64,000 bases of DNA from an uncultured Acidimicrobiales bacterium. GTDB lineage: Bacteria; Actinomycetota; Acidimicrobiia; Acidimicrobiales; SZUA-35. The stretch is taken from NCBI GenBank assembly GCA_938021675.1, contig CALIFY010000005.1, forward strand, positions 1 through 64,000, written 5' to 3'. Under the pieces are notes generated by a model that searched no databases, had not been told where the DNA came from, and saw nothing but the letters and a program-made list of their open reading frames with translations. This document shows, piece after piece, positions 5,689-12,189 of the stretch (within the stretch, counting starts at the first letter, position 1; every line of letters starts with the position of its first letter). The position numbers and the translations under genes are program-made.

Positions 5689-7041
5689 CTATTCTCCTCG
5701 GAGTGGGATGAGAATCCCGTCAGCCGTCAACGAGCTAAGTGCCTCGGCCAACGCATCGACGAAACCGGCTCGTTGCTCAGCGGTCACGGCCAGCGACAAA
5801 GAGACAAATCCGCGCCGAGCGATGTAGTACCCGCGGTCGAGGAGCCGGTGAAACAGCAGCTCCCCGACCCGAGCGTCGACGCCAGCGAGATCGTGTGGTG
5901 CGGCGATGGGGCCGAGCGCGCCATGGATGGTCAACATCGAGCCCCACCCGGTCGCCATCATCGACAGTGGAGCGAGCTGCTCGTTTAGCCGAGCCCGGAA
6001 CGCCTCGCCATCGTCGAAGAGCCGGTCGAGGCGGTCGGCATCGAGTAACTGGGCGCAGGCCGCTATGCCCGCTGACATAGTCACAACGTTGTTGTTGAAC
6101 GTGCCGCCATGGGTCAGGGTGCCACCGCGAGCCGGGTCGAAAGCCGACATCAAGTCGGCCGATCCGCCGAACGCTCCGAAGGTCATTCCGCCGGCCAGGT
6201 ACTTCCCGAGGGTGGTCAGGTCCGGATCGAGTCCAAGTCGCTCCTGGGCACCGCCAGCAGACATGCGTGAGGTCATCACTTCGTCGAAGACCACTAGAAC
6301 GCCCGCAGCCCGACACCGTCGCAGCAGAAGCATCAAGAAATCCGATCGAGCGGGGATACACCCTCCCGCCCCGAGCATCGGTTCGACGACCGCGCAGGCG
6401 ATCTGCGGTCCGTGTTCGTTTAACGCCGCGGCCACAGACCCCAGATCGTTGTATCGGCAGCGAACGTAGTCGAAAGGTGCCTGGAGTGGGCTGCCTCCCG
6501 GACCGAAATGGAGGAGCCCGCCGTGGTATCCGCCATCGAAAACGAGCACCTTCTGCCGCCCGGTTTGGTGTCGGGCCAGGGAGATGGCCATCAAATTTGC
6601 TTCGGTTCCCGAGTTGGTAAACCGGATTTGGTCAACCGAAGGAAACCGTTGGCACAGCAGCTCAGCCAGTTCGTGTTCGGCATTGCTGAGGGCGCCAAGC
6701 GACCAACCACGGTCAAGGGCATCGACGACGGCCCGGCGGATGGCCGGCGGATTGTGCCCAAGTAGGGCGGCGGTGTAGTCCCCGAGAAAGTCCGTATACG
6801 TCAGGCCGTCGACATCGACCAGTTGGGCACCGTCTGCCGAAGCCACTCGGAACGGGAATGGATCGATGTCGAGAACCGAACGGGTCGAGCCTCCCGGCAG
6901 TACCCGACCGGCGACCTCCGCTTGCTTGGCACTTCGCGGCCGTTGTTGCCGGTAGCTGTGGTGAGCGGCGGTCACCGCCTCGTCCGCTGCCACACCATCG
7001 AGGTGGGCGAACCGTACAGAGGATTCTGGCGACTCGGTCAT
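5689..7041 (-). CDS. Glutamate-1-semialdehyde aminomutase-like class III aminotransferase
   Basis: PLP-dependent class III aminotransferase of about 450 aa, of the HemL type. Evidence: LPGGSTRSVLDIDPFPF near the N-terminus, FTNSGTEANLMAISLAR (cofactor phosphate region), VFDEVMTSR (PLP-ring Asp) and TLGKYLAGGM with the Schiff-base lysine near residue 279. HemL makes 5-aminolevulinate, but many secondary homologues act on other amino compounds, and no other haem genes are nearby, so the role in tetrapyrrole synthesis is open. The frame extends upstream to 7152, but the ATG at 7041 (MTESPESS) starts at the family boundary and leaves a promoter-sized gap to the divergent P450. Confidence 0.8.
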   Translation of the reverse strand: MTESPESSVRFAHLDGVAADEAVTAAHHSYRQQRPRSAKQAEVAGRVLPGGSTRSVLDIDPFPFRVASADGAQLVDVDGLTYTDFLGDYTAALLGHNPPAIRRAVVDALDRGWSLGALSNAEHELAELLCQRFPSVDQIRFTNSGTEANLMAISLARHQTGRQKVLVFDGGYHGGLLHFGPGGSPLQAPFDYVRCRYNDLGSVAAALNEHGPQIACAVVEPMLGAGGCIPARSDFLMLLLRRCRAAGVLVVFDEVMTSRMSAGGAQERLGLDPDLTTLGKYLAGGMTFGAFGGSADLMSAFDPARGGTLTHGGTFNNNVVTMSAGIAACAQLLDADRLDRLFDDGEAFRARLNEQLAPLSMMATGWGSMLTIHGALGPIAAPHDLAGVDARVGELLFHRLLDRGYYIARRGFVSLSLAVTAEQRAGFVDALAEALSSLTADGILIPLRGE

Positions 7042-7162
7042 GGCCAGAGTCTGCCAGCCGAAGGAGGCCGTAGCGAACCGTTCGAATGTGGACTCGCCTG
7101 CCCCATACTCACCGTCTGGTCTGTACCTCAGGGCGGAACTAGCCTCGCTCATTCTGGTCGGT

Positions 7163-7168
7163 TACTGT
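7163..7168 (+). promoter_or_regulatory. Candidate -10 box (TACTGT) for the P450 at 7175
   Basis: TACTGT ends 6 nt before the ATG at 7175 with no ribosome-binding site between, a leaderless arrangement. It supports the internal ATG at 7175 over the longer open frame that begins at 7040. Confidence 0.35.
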
Positions 7169-7174
7169 CCGTTG

Positions 7175-8437
7175 ATGAGCGACGTTACGACCGAGCTGCC
7201 GAATCCGATCGTGCCTGAATTCTGGGTCCGCTCAAGCGACGCCGTTGAACGTGACCTGACCGCCCTCCGCGACGCGGGAGGGGTCACGTTTCATCCAGAG
7301 CCAGAGGTTCCTCTAGAAATTCCGCTTCCTCAAGGCGTCGGAAGTTGGGTGTTGACCAATCACGCTGACATCTTGCATGTGTCAAAACACCCCGAGATAT
7401 TTAGCTCGGCCGACGGCGTCACAATCGCCGACACGCCACCGGAGTTCCGGGAGTTCTTCGGATCGATGATCGCTATGGACGACCCCCGCCATGCCCGGTT
7501 GCGTCGAATCGTCTCGGCCGGTTTCACGCCCCGCATGCTCGGTCGTCTGGAAGAGTCAGTGCAGGCCACCGCCACCGAAATTATTGAAGAAATACGCCCG
7601 AAGGGCGCTGTTGATTTTGTTGTTGATGTCGCTGCCGCCCTGCCGTTGAGAATCGTCTGCAACCTGATGGGGGTTCCCGCTAGCGAGTATCAGTTCGTAT
7701 TCGATCAAACCAATGTGATCCTGGGTGTAGCAGATCCAGAGTACGTGCCGGACAATAACGACATCGTTACTGCCTTGCTTACTGCCGGCGGCAAGTTGGC
7801 CGATTTGATGGCCGAAGTGGCTGAATCCAAGAAAGGAGAAAGCGGCGAAGATCTGACCTCGAAACTAGTTAACGCCGATCTCGGAGATCACCAGCTGACG
7901 CCGGCCGACCTGGCCAGTTTTTTCATCCTGTTGGTTGTAGCCGGCAATGAAACGACCCGCAACGCCATCAGCTGGGGTCTCACATACCTCACAGAGAACC
8001 CAGACCAACGCAAGATTTGGACCGATGATTTCGAGGGTGTCGCTCCGAGCGCGGTCGAAGAGATCGTTCGACTAGCCAGTCCCGTCACGTACATGCGGCG
8101 CACGGCGACCGCAGACACCGAGATCGGTGGTCAAGTCATCGCAGCCGGCGACAAAGTTGCCATGTTCTACCTGGCTGCCAACCGCGACCCAAAGGTGTTC
8201 ACCGACCCACTCCAATTCGATGTGCTTCGAGACCCAAACCCCCACGTAGGATTCGGTGGGCCCGGCCCGCATTACTGCCTCGGGGCTCACCTGGCTCGCC
8301 GAGAAACTACTGTGCTGTTTCGCGAACTATTCCGCCGCATTCCAGACATCGAATCGACCGGACCGCCCGACTTACTTCAGAGCAGTTTTATCCACGGCAT
8401 CAAACACCTACCGGCCAGCTTCACCGCTGTCAGTTGA
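7175..8437 (+). CDS. Cytochrome P450, CYP124/CYP125/CYP142-like
   Basis: Soluble bacterial P450 of 420 aa. It shows the I-helix AGNETTR (acid-alcohol pair present), the K-helix ExxR (EIVR) and the haem loop FGGPGPHYCLGAHLARRE with the cysteine ligand. The N-terminal part (WVLTNHADILHVSKHPEIFSS) resembles actinobacterial CYP124/125/142 enzymes, which hydroxylate sterol side chains or branched lipids. The substrate here is an inference. No ferredoxin or reductase gene is adjacent. It is divergent from the HemL-like gene and convergent with the peroxiredoxin. Confidence 0.88.
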   Translation: MSDVTTELPNPIVPEFWVRSSDAVERDLTALRDAGGVTFHPEPEVPLEIPLPQGVGSWVLTNHADILHVSKHPEIFSSADGVTIADTPPEFREFFGSMIAMDDPRHARLRRIVSAGFTPRMLGRLEESVQATATEIIEEIRPKGAVDFVVDVAAALPLRIVCNLMGVPASEYQFVFDQTNVILGVADPEYVPDNNDIVTALLTAGGKLADLMAEVAESKKGESGEDLTSKLVNADLGDHQLTPADLASFFILLVVAGNETTRNAISWGLTYLTENPDQRKIWTDDFEGVAPSAVEEIVRLASPVTYMRRTATADTEIGGQVIAAGDKVAMFYLAANRDPKVFTDPLQFDVLRDPNPHVGFGGPGPHYCLGAHLARRETTVLFRELFRRIPDIESTGPPDLLQSSFIHGIKHLPASFTAVS

Positions 8438-8478: not shown

Positions 8479-8934
8479 CTACGCGGCTCGGCTTCGAAGG
8501 AGCGCCAATGCCTCGTCGGCATGGGATGCCATATTGGTCTCGCTGGTGTTTGCTGCCAACACGGTCGAGTCTGAACCGATCACGAACGTTGCCCGTTTGA
8601 CCGGTAGCGGCCCAAACCGCTTCACCCCAAAGATCCCGGCTACCGATTTGTCGGGATCTGAGAGCAACGGAAAGCCGAGCTCGTTCGCTTCATCGAATGC
8701 CTTTTGCCGATCTGACCGATCAGGCGACACTCCTACGATCTTGGCGTTGAGTTCTGCGAACTCGGCGCTTAGATCACGGAAGTGCTTGCTCTCAATCGTT
8801 CAACCAGGCGTCATGGCCTTTATATAGAAATAGACGACCAACGGACCGGTAGCGAGCAGCGAAGACAGCGTCACCTGGTTCCCGTGTTGATCGTCCAGCG
8901 TGAACTCTTCAACAGTATCTCCGACTTTCAGCAC
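8479..8934 (-). CDS. bcp: Bcp-type peroxiredoxin with in-frame TGA at the catalytic cysteine (candidate selenoprotein)
   Basis: Reading through one TGA (8802-8800) gives a 151-residue thiol-peroxidase of the AhpC/TSA Bcp/PrxQ type, the normal family length. The frame upstream of the TGA reads VLKVGDTVEEFTLDD and ends YFYIKAMTPG; downstream it reads TIESKHFRDLSAEF. Family members have TPGCT at this place, so the TGA replaces the peroxidatic cysteine exactly (codon 45; Cys45 in E. coli Bcp). The usual resolving-cysteine position (codon 50) is lysine, so this would be a 1-Sec enzyme. The GTG start at 8934 has AGGAG 5 nt upstream and lies 24 nt after valS. The remainder is intact with no other stop. 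The alternative is a pseudogene made by one TGC/TGT-to-TGA change. Confidence 0.75.
8749..8763 (-). promoter_or_regulatory. Hairpin downstream of the TGA codon, weak SECIS candidate
   Basis: GAGTTC-TGC-GAACTC is a perfect 6-bp inverted repeat; the RNA reads GAGUUC-GCA-GAACUC with a loop starting in G. The loop begins about 42 nt after the TGA, slightly further than bacterial SECIS loops usually lie (roughly 16-37 nt), so support is weak. No better stem was found closer by eye. Confidence 0.25.
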
Positions 8935-8958
8935 CGGTTGCTCCTCATTGCCGCAACT

Positions 8959-11900
8959 CTAGTTCGTCAGCGCGGTCAGCGCGGCCTCCGCCGCTCGGAG
9001 ATCGTTTCTCGTGGTCTCCAAACGCTCACGAGTTTCAGCTACTACTTCGGGTTTGGCGTTGGTCACATACCCAGGGTTGGCCAGCCGCTGCTCAAAGCCA
9101 CGCACCTGCGTGGCTTTGGCCTCAATCAGCTTCTGTAACCGGGCTCGCTCGGCATCGAAGTCGAGTTCGTCGACCAGGCCTGAGACAAGCACCTCGACCC
9201 CTTCGAACGGCAGTGGGCTGGCCGCAGGCGGCCGGTCGTCGCCAGCCGCGAAATCAACGACGTCTCCAACGCCGGCCAAGGTCTCAATCATGCCATCGGA
9301 GGCGGCGATGAGTTCCCGGACCGAGGCCGGCACATGAAGGGTCACCCGCTGTTTCGGCTTGACGTTGCGCGAGGAGCGGAGAGTCCTGATGGCCCCAACC
9401 AGCCGGTCCGCTCGGTCGAAAGTGTCGACGACAAGCCCAGCCGAAGCCAGAGGCTCGACGACCGGCCAACGAGCTGAGGCCGCCAGCTCCGATGGCGGCA
9501 ACGCAACCCCGACGATCTCGCCTGTCCGAACCGCGGCGACATGCGGCCACAATGCTTCGGTCACGAACGGGCAGACCGGATGAAGAATCCGAAGTACGGC
9601 ATCGAGCACCGCACCGAGCACCGCTTGTTGATCGGCGTTGCCATCGATGGTCGGTTTCACCGCCTCGAGGTATCGGTCGCAAACGTCCCGCCAGATGAAG
9701 TCGTAGAGCGTGTCTGCGTAGACGTTGAACTGGTAGTTGGCGAGTGCCTCTTCTATGACTCCCAACGACTGGGCTAACCGGGCGATGATCCACTGGTCGG
9801 CGAACGTCGTCGAGCCATCTGCCGAGGATGGATCTACCGTGATGCTCGGAGCGTGGCCAGGATCGATACGACTCAAAGCGAACCGCGTAGCGTTCCAGAC
9901 TTTGTTGGCGAAATTGCGTCCAAGGTCGAACTTCGAAGACGTGTTCCTTGCCAGCGGCACGTCGGTGGTTGCGGTCACGGCTCCGGTGGCGACCCCGTAG
10001 GCGCTAACCATCGACTTCGTCGGTTCGTTTGGGGACGTCTGGGTCGGGGCCGCCACAACGTGACCGGCCGACGTGGTGATGAACTCCGGCGTGAACATTT
10101 CGCCGGTGTGGGGGCAGATCAAGTCGACCGGCATTCGAACGTCCTGGGTGTCGGTCGTCATCTGCACCAGCGTGAAGCGAAGGGCATCTGCGCCGTGAGT
10201 GTGAATGATGTCCCGAGGGTCAACGCCGTTGCCAAGGCTCTTTGACATCTTCTGGCCATGCCCATCCTGGATCATGGCGTGGATGAACACGTCGTCGAAT
10301 GGGAGTTGGCCCTGGCGGAAATAGCGGTTGAACATCGTCATCCGGCTGACCCACAAAGTGATGATCTCCCGAGCGGTCATGAGCACCGACGTCGGGTTGA
10401 ACGACTCCAACAGGCCGACGGTCTCGGGGAAGTCTTCCGGCCACGGCCAACCCATCGTCGACAACGGCCACAAGCCTGACGAGAACCACGTGTCGAGAAC
10501 GTCAGGATCCTGAACAAACCCATCGGTTTCGATAGCGGCGATTAGCGCCGCCTCGTCCATTGTCGAATCGGTGCGGTCGAGCCGTCGTAAGCTCGACCCG
10601 GGCGGAACACAAACCGCCTCCTCGACCTCGGTCTCGGTCACCTTGCGAGCGAGGTGGGCGGCTCCGGCCGCGACCCATCGGCTCTCGATAAAAACCGGCT
10701 CGTCAACCGCGGCGTCGGCAACCGCAGCCCCGATCTCTGGACCGGCGTCTTCGATCGGCTGCAGCCGGACCCACACCGGAATCCGGTGGCCCCACCAAAG
10801 CTGACGGGAGATACACCAATCGCGGATGCCGGCATGCCAGGCGTGATACGTGCGGGCGTAACGATCGGGGTGGAAGGTCATCGCCCCGTCGCCTGGCGCG
10901 TCGGTTCGGTGCCCGGCATCATCGGGCAACGCCGGACTCTGGGTTGGGTTCTGTGCCCGCAACGCCGAACCCCGAAGACGGTCGTCGGTCACCGCCACAT
11001 ACCACTGGTCAGACAGCCACGGCTCTATCGGCACGTGACTTCGGTACGAGTGCCCAACGGAGTGGGTGTACGCCCTGACTTCCTCCAACAGGCCGCGCTC
11101 GTCAAACCAGGCGACGATGGCCGAACGCGCCTCTTCACGGCTAAGTCCAACGAACTCTTGGGCCTCCGAAGAGGTGTCTTCCCACCCGTGTTCCGAGCTG
11201 ATCGAACCATCGGGGCCCATGACGTTGATGACCGGCAACTCATGGCGAAGCCCGATTTCCCAGTCGTTGGGATCGTGAGCGGGAGTGACTTTGAGGAAAC
11301 CGGTCGCGTACTTCGCCTTACCGTCCGACGAATCAGGGTCGGCCATCACGACGTAGTCATCTTCGACGATCGGAATGACCCGGTCGACGATCGGAAGCAG
11401 AACCGACTTGTTGCGCAACGCCCTGGCTCGCGGGTCGGCCGGATTGATTGCAACGGCGGTGTCGCCCAGCATCGTCTCCGGTCGGGTGGTCGCCACGGTG
11501 ACATGACCAGAACCGTCGGAAAGGGGATACCGGAGGTACCACATGTGGCCCTCGATCTCCTCCATCTCAACCTCGTCGTCGGACAACGCGGTGCGAGTCA
11601 CCGGATCCCAGTTGACGAGACGCTTTCCCCGATAGATCAGCCCATCTTGGAAGAGCGTGTAGAACGCATGACGAACCGCGGTGACGCACATTTCGTCCAT
11701 CGTGAATCGCGTTCGTTCCCAATCACACGAGGCGCCCATGGCCAGGAGCTGCTCGATGATTACCGCCTCGTACTCGTCCTTCCAGTCCTGGGTCTTGGCC
11801 AGGAAAGCATCGCGACCCATCTCCAGTCGTTTTACCCCCTCGCTCAGCAACCGCTTCTCGACGACCGTTTGCGTGGCGATTCCGGCGTGATCGGTACCTG

Positions 11901-12189
11901 GCATCCAGAGGGTGCGGTGACCGAGCATCCGGTGATAGCGGATGAGAACATCTTGGAGCGTATTGTTCAGCGCGTGGCCGAGATGGAGCGCGGCGGTCAC
12001 GTTCGGCGGTGGGATAACGATCGAATACGTTGGGGTTTGGTCGTCGCCGGTCCGCGGTTCTGCGGCGAATACCCCGGCGGTAGTCCACCTCTTCGTTACC
12101 TCCTCTTCGGTTTCGGAGGGGTCGTAGGCCTTTGGAATAGCGGCGGTGAGAGGGCCGGGGTCGGCTGGGGTGGTCGAAGTCATCGCCAA
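8959..12189 (-). CDS. valS: Valyl-tRNA synthetase
   Basis: Class I aminoacyl-tRNA synthetase that charges tRNA-Val. It shows the HIGH motif (PPPNVTAALHLGHAL, residues 60-74), the KMSKS motif (QKMSKSLGNG), ISRQLWWGHRIPVW before the editing/catalytic junction, DVLDTWFSSGLWP, and a C-terminal coiled arm with the pattern ERARLQKLIEAKATQVRGFEQRLANP that is characteristic of ValRS. At 1076 aa it is longer than the usual 880 or so. The extra length includes a segment between the WGHRIPVW motif and DTWFSSG and another (about 45 aa) after the KMSKS loop before the anticodon-binding domain. The peroxiredoxin follows 24 nt downstream, so the two probably share a transcript. Confidence 0.95.
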   Translation of the reverse strand: MAMTSTTPADPGPLTAAIPKAYDPSETEEEVTKRWTTAGVFAAEPRTGDDQTPTYSIVIPPPNVTAALHLGHALNNTLQDVLIRYHRMLGHRTLWMPGTDHAGIATQTVVEKRLLSEGVKRLEMGRDAFLAKTQDWKDEYEAVIIEQLLAMGASCDWERTRFTMDEMCVTAVRHAFYTLFQDGLIYRGKRLVNWDPVTRTALSDDEVEMEEIEGHMWYLRYPLSDGSGHVTVATTRPETMLGDTAVAINPADPRARALRNKSVLLPIVDRVIPIVEDDYVVMADPDSSDGKAKYATGFLKVTPAHDPNDWEIGLRHELPVINVMGPDGSISSEHGWEDTSSEAQEFVGLSREEARSAIVAWFDERGLLEEVRAYTHSVGHSYRSHVPIEPWLSDQWYVAVTDDRLRGSALRAQNPTQSPALPDDAGHRTDAPGDGAMTFHPDRYARTYHAWHAGIRDWCISRQLWWGHRIPVWVRLQPIEDAGPEIGAAVADAAVDEPVFIESRWVAAGAAHLARKVTETEVEEAVCVPPGSSLRRLDRTDSTMDEAALIAAIETDGFVQDPDVLDTWFSSGLWPLSTMGWPWPEDFPETVGLLESFNPTSVLMTAREIITLWVSRMTMFNRYFRQGQLPFDDVFIHAMIQDGHGQKMSKSLGNGVDPRDIIHTHGADALRFTLVQMTTDTQDVRMPVDLICPHTGEMFTPEFITTSAGHVVAAPTQTSPNEPTKSMVSAYGVATGAVTATTDVPLARNTSSKFDLGRNFANKVWNATRFALSRIDPGHAPSITVDPSSADGSTTFADQWIIARLAQSLGVIEEALANYQFNVYADTLYDFIWRDVCDRYLEAVKPTIDGNADQQAVLGAVLDAVLRILHPVCPFVTEALWPHVAAVRTGEIVGVALPPSELAASARWPVVEPLASAGLVVDTFDRADRLVGAIRTLRSSRNVKPKQRVTLHVPASVRELIAASDGMIETLAGVGDVVDFAAGDDRPPAASPLPFEGVEVLVSGLVDELDFDAERARLQKLIEAKATQVRGFEQRLANPGYVTNAKPEVVAETRERLETTRNDLRAAEAALTALTN

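Follow-up and report, generated by a model that had tools for sequence, protein, structure and literature searches.

The gene studied here lies on the minus strand of the window, by which we mean the whole stretch of 64,000 nucleotides that was analysed. Read from 8934 to 8479, its frame comprises 44 codons including the GTG start, a TGA as codon 45, 106 sense codons and a TAG stop (Table 1). Scanning of this frame revealed no frameshift and no internal stop besides TGA45. Six bases separate the AGGAG motif (8945-8941) from the GTG. An earlier sequence-only reading of the locus had described an intact frame around one TGA at 8802-8800, a length of 151 codons, a GTG start and an AGGAG site, and all of these were recovered on the minus strand. 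Under the standard code (table 11), the sole ORF listed at the locus encodes 83 residues (8479..8730, minus strand), again as that reading had it; a standard-code annotation would thus retain an 83-codon fragment and an antioxidant enzyme would be overlooked. The valine--tRNA ligase and peroxiredoxin genes may possibly share a common transcript. On the plus strand, a cytochrome P450-like gene (7040-8437 of the window) is convergent with the peroxiredoxin gene and lies 41 bases from its end.

Table 1. Features of the peroxiredoxin locus, with positions in the window
Feature	Position	Strand	Basis or remark
Bcp/PrxQ peroxiredoxin gene including TGA read-through	8479..8934	-	151 residues, GTG start, TAG stop; profile matches, predicted fold
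TGA codon 45, peroxidatic position, inferred selenocysteine	8800..8802	-	frame and homologue alignment
Codon 38, ATA (Ile)	8821..8823	-	Pro in 89/89 Cys rows
Codon 50, AAG (Lys)	8785..8787	-	resolving-Cys position in 89/89 Cys rows
AGGAG, likely ribosome-binding site	8941..8945	-	sequence
Post-TGA stretch, expected place of a bacterial SECIS	8755..8799	-	folds and alignments: no conserved stem found
Valine--tRNA ligase, upstream neighbour	8959..12189	-	ORF list; ends 24 bases ahead of the peroxiredoxin GTG

The read-through product was compared with protein families. The Pfam AhpC-TSA profile runs over the TGA, from residue 4 to residue 125 (E 3.7e-31, 108.1 bits for a cut-off of 26). The best NCBIfam match is PRK09437, thioredoxin-dependent thiol peroxidase, with E 6.3e-29 and a score of 100.9 bits that stays below the cut-off of 140. 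Codon 45, in the context T42-P-G-TGA45, aligns with the Cys of the homologues, so that the TGA indeed replaces the peroxidatic cysteine as first proposed; this residue presumably corresponds to Cys45 of E. coli Bcp. TGA45 aside, the read-through protein contains no Cys residue. The sequence-only reading was right about lysine (AAG) at the resolving position, residue 50, and overlooked both Ile38 and the total absence of other Cys. An AlphaFold model calculated with a 14-row alignment, Cys standing for Sec, reached a pLDDT of 90.9 and a pTM of 0.88. In this model, residue 45 opens a helix spanning residues 45-54. PrxQ/Bcp structures ranked first in a Foldseek search, the best solved one being 5epf, BcpB from Mycobacterium tuberculosis. 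5epf resembles the model closely (TM 0.93, 52% identity as given by Foldseek), with equal length and the same motif surroundings. It carries however Cys45, Cys50 and Pro where the query has inferred Sec45, Lys50 and Ile38.

Homologues were then examined at codon 45. When 395 genomes from the class were searched with the protein, 204 gave matches (E up to 1e-20). The codon was read at 49 loci, namely the best matches and the listed rows with an internal stop, and every TGA row among the matches listed was included. TGA was found at 25 of these loci and TGC or TGT at 24, which makes 26 TGA loci when the query is counted. In a second scan, of named genomes, the top 80 out of 587 confirmed stretches contained 12 TGA and 68 Cys codons at this position; the closest of these 80 (L074, Acidimicrobiales MAG Ww635) is 76% identical to the query and carries TGA. 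Counting distinct rows among the matches listed, 35 have TGA (query counted) and 89 have TGC or TGT. This row set leaves out a peroxiredoxin of another type (L024), two distant Bcp rows (L058 and L072, both with Cys45, Cys50 and Pro38) and four rows duplicating the 90-base stretch of another row around codon 45. Searching 396 genomes from the phylum added 26 further loci, all with Cys45, Pro38 and Cys50, some of which may correspond to species counted before. Since 34 further distinct rows also have TGA at this codon, chance does not explain it. The earlier judgement that a random nonsense mutation at this very codon was unlikely is thereby borne out, and the alignment of homologues, by which it was to be checked, shows that TGA45 is not unique to this gene.

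TAG and TAA codons had also been flagged inside homologues as other possible Sec codons; they fall at query positions 145-150 and are simply gene ends. Three rows from family f15 of the same order (L059, L068 and L069) form a separate, distant Bcp lineage with TGA45, Cys50 lost and Pro38 retained; they are counted within the 35 TGA rows and stand outside the sets used for SECIS searches. Two titles do not fit the placement of their rows in the tree. L083 (DUCH01000534.1, titled Myxococcales MAG) is a TGA Bcp found amid Acidimicrobiia rows, reflecting gene transfer or a misassigned contig, and L108 (CAMDFY010000026.1, titled Bifidobacterium breve MAG) is a Bcp found amid mycobacterial rows, the contig of which may be misbinned.

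In order to evaluate decoding of the TGA, the genome was searched for the selenocysteine machinery, a check already proposed in the sequence-only reading. The window lies on contig 5 of a draft assembly of 4.45 Mb (99 contigs), for which completeness is 95.26% and contamination 2.51%. Its selA, selB, selD and tRNA-Sec were all found. The selA (402.9 bits) and selB (266 bits) genes, both above cut-off, are neighbours on contig 28. That contig also carries a tRNA-Sec gene scoring 67.3 bits, which ARAGORN reports as tRNA-SeC with a TCA anticodon. The next tRNA-Sec match above the gathering score is a tRNA-Ser according to ARAGORN, showing that this score by itself is unspecific. The selD gene (373.2 bits; L020, G000:C65:22154-23071, minus strand) has itself an in-frame TGA within GAG-U-GCK, and SelD is probably a selenoprotein too. 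Similarly, an FdhA-like gene (L186, G000:C82:11781-13655, plus strand; 639.9 bits, below the cut-off of 666.25) has an in-frame TGA within CNRT-U-HAPSV, its product being probably a third selenoprotein. We take these two motifs to be those in which SelD and FdhF classically carry Sec. A Cys-type Bcp copy was sought in the same genome and none was found (E up to 0.01); the sole other match at this threshold is a peroxiredoxin with a PVCTTE motif, 28% identical to the query. As the genome is a draft, window and Sec machinery could in principle come from separate organisms.

The distribution of the machinery among related genomes was compared with the identity of codon 45. By-eye reading of the matches listed selA in 25 of 26 TGA genomes as compared to 8 of 23 Cys genomes (Fisher p 5e-6), and selB exceeded its cut-off in 24 of 25 TGA genomes (own genome excluded) as compared to 7 of 23, all these being kin genomes with a non-random Cys set, so that the trials are not independent. 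In one TGA genome, G292, selA and selB were sought and neither was found. G292 nevertheless has a 77-bit tRNA-Sec resembling that of its congener G176, and this suggests an assembly gap. The eight Cys genomes with selA are selenium users with a Cys Bcp, which would be expected if the two forms are interchangeable.

Selection past the TGA was estimated from pairwise comparisons. Between the query and L074, dN/dS was 0.112/0.963, about 0.12, over the 38 codons before the TGA and 0.176/1.264, about 0.14, over the 94 codons after it. Six more comparisons gave post-TGA values of 0.11 to 0.29, with dS high or saturated; in the comparison with L075, the pre-TGA part seems indel-shifted. The part of the gene that follows the TGA is under purifying selection, about as strict, as judged against L074, as the part that precedes it.

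We also looked for a SECIS element after the TGA. Neither single-sequence folds nor alignments of 32 TGA rows gave a consensus stem. With RNAalifold, applied to the 32 TGA rows and the 89 Cys rows over six stretches, no structure was obtained apart from a weak one of -1.22 kcal/mol in one TGA stretch. Set against synonymous-codon shuffles, the TGA rows showed no gain in folding (mean z 0.11 and 0.34). A stem drawn by hand over codons 50-54 was discarded: it is complete in 18 of 32 TGA rows, and 18.0 are expected with shuffled partners. Some differences in codon choice were observed, kinship being ignored. TGT rather than TGC is used at codon 50 in 16/24 TGA rows and 18/89 Cys rows, and Ser49 is encoded by AGY in 30/31 TGA rows and 32/42 Cys rows; with kinship uncorrected, these differences do not prove a SECIS. 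Bacterial SECIS elements vary, so that the missing consensus stem is weak evidence against Sec.

Two residues of the active site distinguish the TGA rows. Among the matches listed, Cys50 is missing in 11 of 35 TGA rows and in none of 89 Cys rows (Fisher p 2.5e-7, kinship ignored), while Pro38 is missing in 21 of 35 and none of 89, respectively (p 8e-15, kinship ignored). Thus, two positions that are invariant in the 89 Cys rows vary in the TGA rows. When columns 38, 45 and 50 were masked, a quick tree built from 126 rows called for a minimum of five Sec/Cys changes, five Cys50 changes and four Pro38 changes. With column 38 unmasked, the minimum was five Sec/Cys and four Cys50 changes, on a tree in which 61 of 123 inner branches are open and gain and loss are indistinguishable. 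Too few pairs were available for any signal when loss of Cys50 or of Pro38 was tested against Sec by independent pairs. The association of Sec with residue loss is therefore striking by rows and thin by events, with few independent branches. In the eight-row clade of the query, residue 38 is Ile in all eight rows, and residue 50 is Lys in three rows and Cys in two, with Asn, Ala and Gln occurring once each. Pro38 is treated here as a conserved trait of Sec peroxiredoxins and not as a defining one, as it is absent from 20 other TGA rows too. Tentatively, and with somewhat less than even confidence, we suggest that Sec45 relaxes the constraint on the site, making Cys50 and Pro38 dispensable, and that their loss gave a Cys-free 1-Sec PrxQ in these Acidimicrobiales, served by an outside thiol, possibly mycothiol. 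The effect of Sec on active-site constraint is open to direct test with paired Sec and Cys proteins, and the mixture of TGA and Cys homologues in kin genomes is a natural experiment on the benefit of Sec to a peroxidase.

The same losses could mean a weakened or changed enzyme. A Sec protein that has given up the peroxidase role for another redox function, such as that of a thiol/selenol transferase or a sensor, would fit with losses of Pro38 and Cys50 confined, among the matches listed, to TGA rows, and with the variety at residue 50 and the uniform Ile38 in the clade of the query. However, Thr42 and Thr46 are kept in 35/35 TGA rows and Gly44 in 33/35, and the PrxQ fold is predicted to be retained; we consider such a change of role improbable. 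Recoding of TGA in another manner, by general reassignment or by read-through with another amino acid, is much less probable still. Near-cognate tRNAs are known to allow bacterial read-through of TGA and nothing specific speaks for it here, whereas the genome encodes a tRNA-Sec with a TCA anticodon together with selA and selB, and TGA serves as terminal stop in some relatives (L052 and L066, for instance). In addition, codon 45 is Cys in 24/24 non-TGA loci of the first set and in 68/68 of the second (best 80 of 587), so that Cys or Sec is expected at this position. Least probable of all is a pseudogene or a sequencing error, in which TGC mutated or was misread to TGA, leaving a dead gene or an ordinary Cys enzyme: the genome is a draft, table 11 yields a fragment, and Pro38 and Cys50 are altered as well, but TGA stands on the same codon in 34 more distinct rows, which come from other assemblies, selection past the TGA is strict and the genome has the Sec machinery.

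The intact frame, the position and recurrence of the TGA, the machinery, purifying selection, the predicted fold and the lack of any other Cys argue, at the level of sequence, that the gene very probably encodes a selenocysteine-containing Bcp/PrxQ peroxiredoxin, which would work through a 1-Sec cycle with an outside thiol. The selenoprotein first put forward as a candidate is thus supported, as the genome has the Sec machinery and the TGA is not restricted to this gene. In the proposed mechanism, TGA45 would be decoded as Sec45 by SelB and tRNA-Sec. The selenolate of Sec45, the residue that opens the first active-site helix, would attack and reduce H2O2 or organic hydroperoxides, a step taken from general knowledge of the family. 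Since the protein has no second Cys, the resulting selenenic acid could not be resolved within it. An outside thiol would convert the selenenic acid to a selenenylsulfide, from which a thioredoxin- or mycoredoxin-type reductant may free the enzyme. An MshC-like protein encoded in the genome (429.8 bits, below the cut-off of 485.1) tentatively hints at mycothiol.

Such a cycle can be compared with those of known peroxiredoxins. Atypical 2-Cys PrxQ enzymes have a resolving Cys at +5, whereas the query has Lys50 and no other Cys. The 1-Cys enzyme AhpE (1xxu, 4x1u) has, as proposed for the query, a lone catalytic chalcogen and an outside reductant; it is reduced via mycothiol and mycoredoxin. AhpE is however only 28% identical to the query and uses Cys, not Sec, and the query is a PrxQ/Bcp by sequence.

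Sec peroxiredoxins of this type have been described. In the table of PMC9312934, Peroxiredoxin (Prx), COG1225 (Bcp), with TxxU, is placed ahead of the rows marked 'Predicted'. PMC1088965 (2005) gives 43 Prx COG1225 sequences with TXXU from the Sargasso Sea, PMC1794560 gives 12 Prx selenoproteins and five Cys-to-Sec conversions, and PMC5029168 gives 91 Prx selenoproteins across 78 organisms. The remark in the sequence-only reading that peroxidatic Sec is known in other peroxiredoxins agrees with the COG1225 TxxU family of PMC1088965 and PMC9312934. The published proteins share with the query the Bcp type and the peroxidatic TxxU context, which in the query is T42-P-G-U45. Within the open-licence literature, to the extent that its text was covered by the search, nothing was found on Sec peroxiredoxins of Acidimicrobiia or on loss of Pro38 or Cys50. 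A PxxxTxxU motif is termed highly conserved in PMC13188914; the query differs from it by Ile in place of Pro and is also devoid of any Cys. The gene belongs to the published Sec-Prx family, and the departure of its active site from the published motif is the less expected part.
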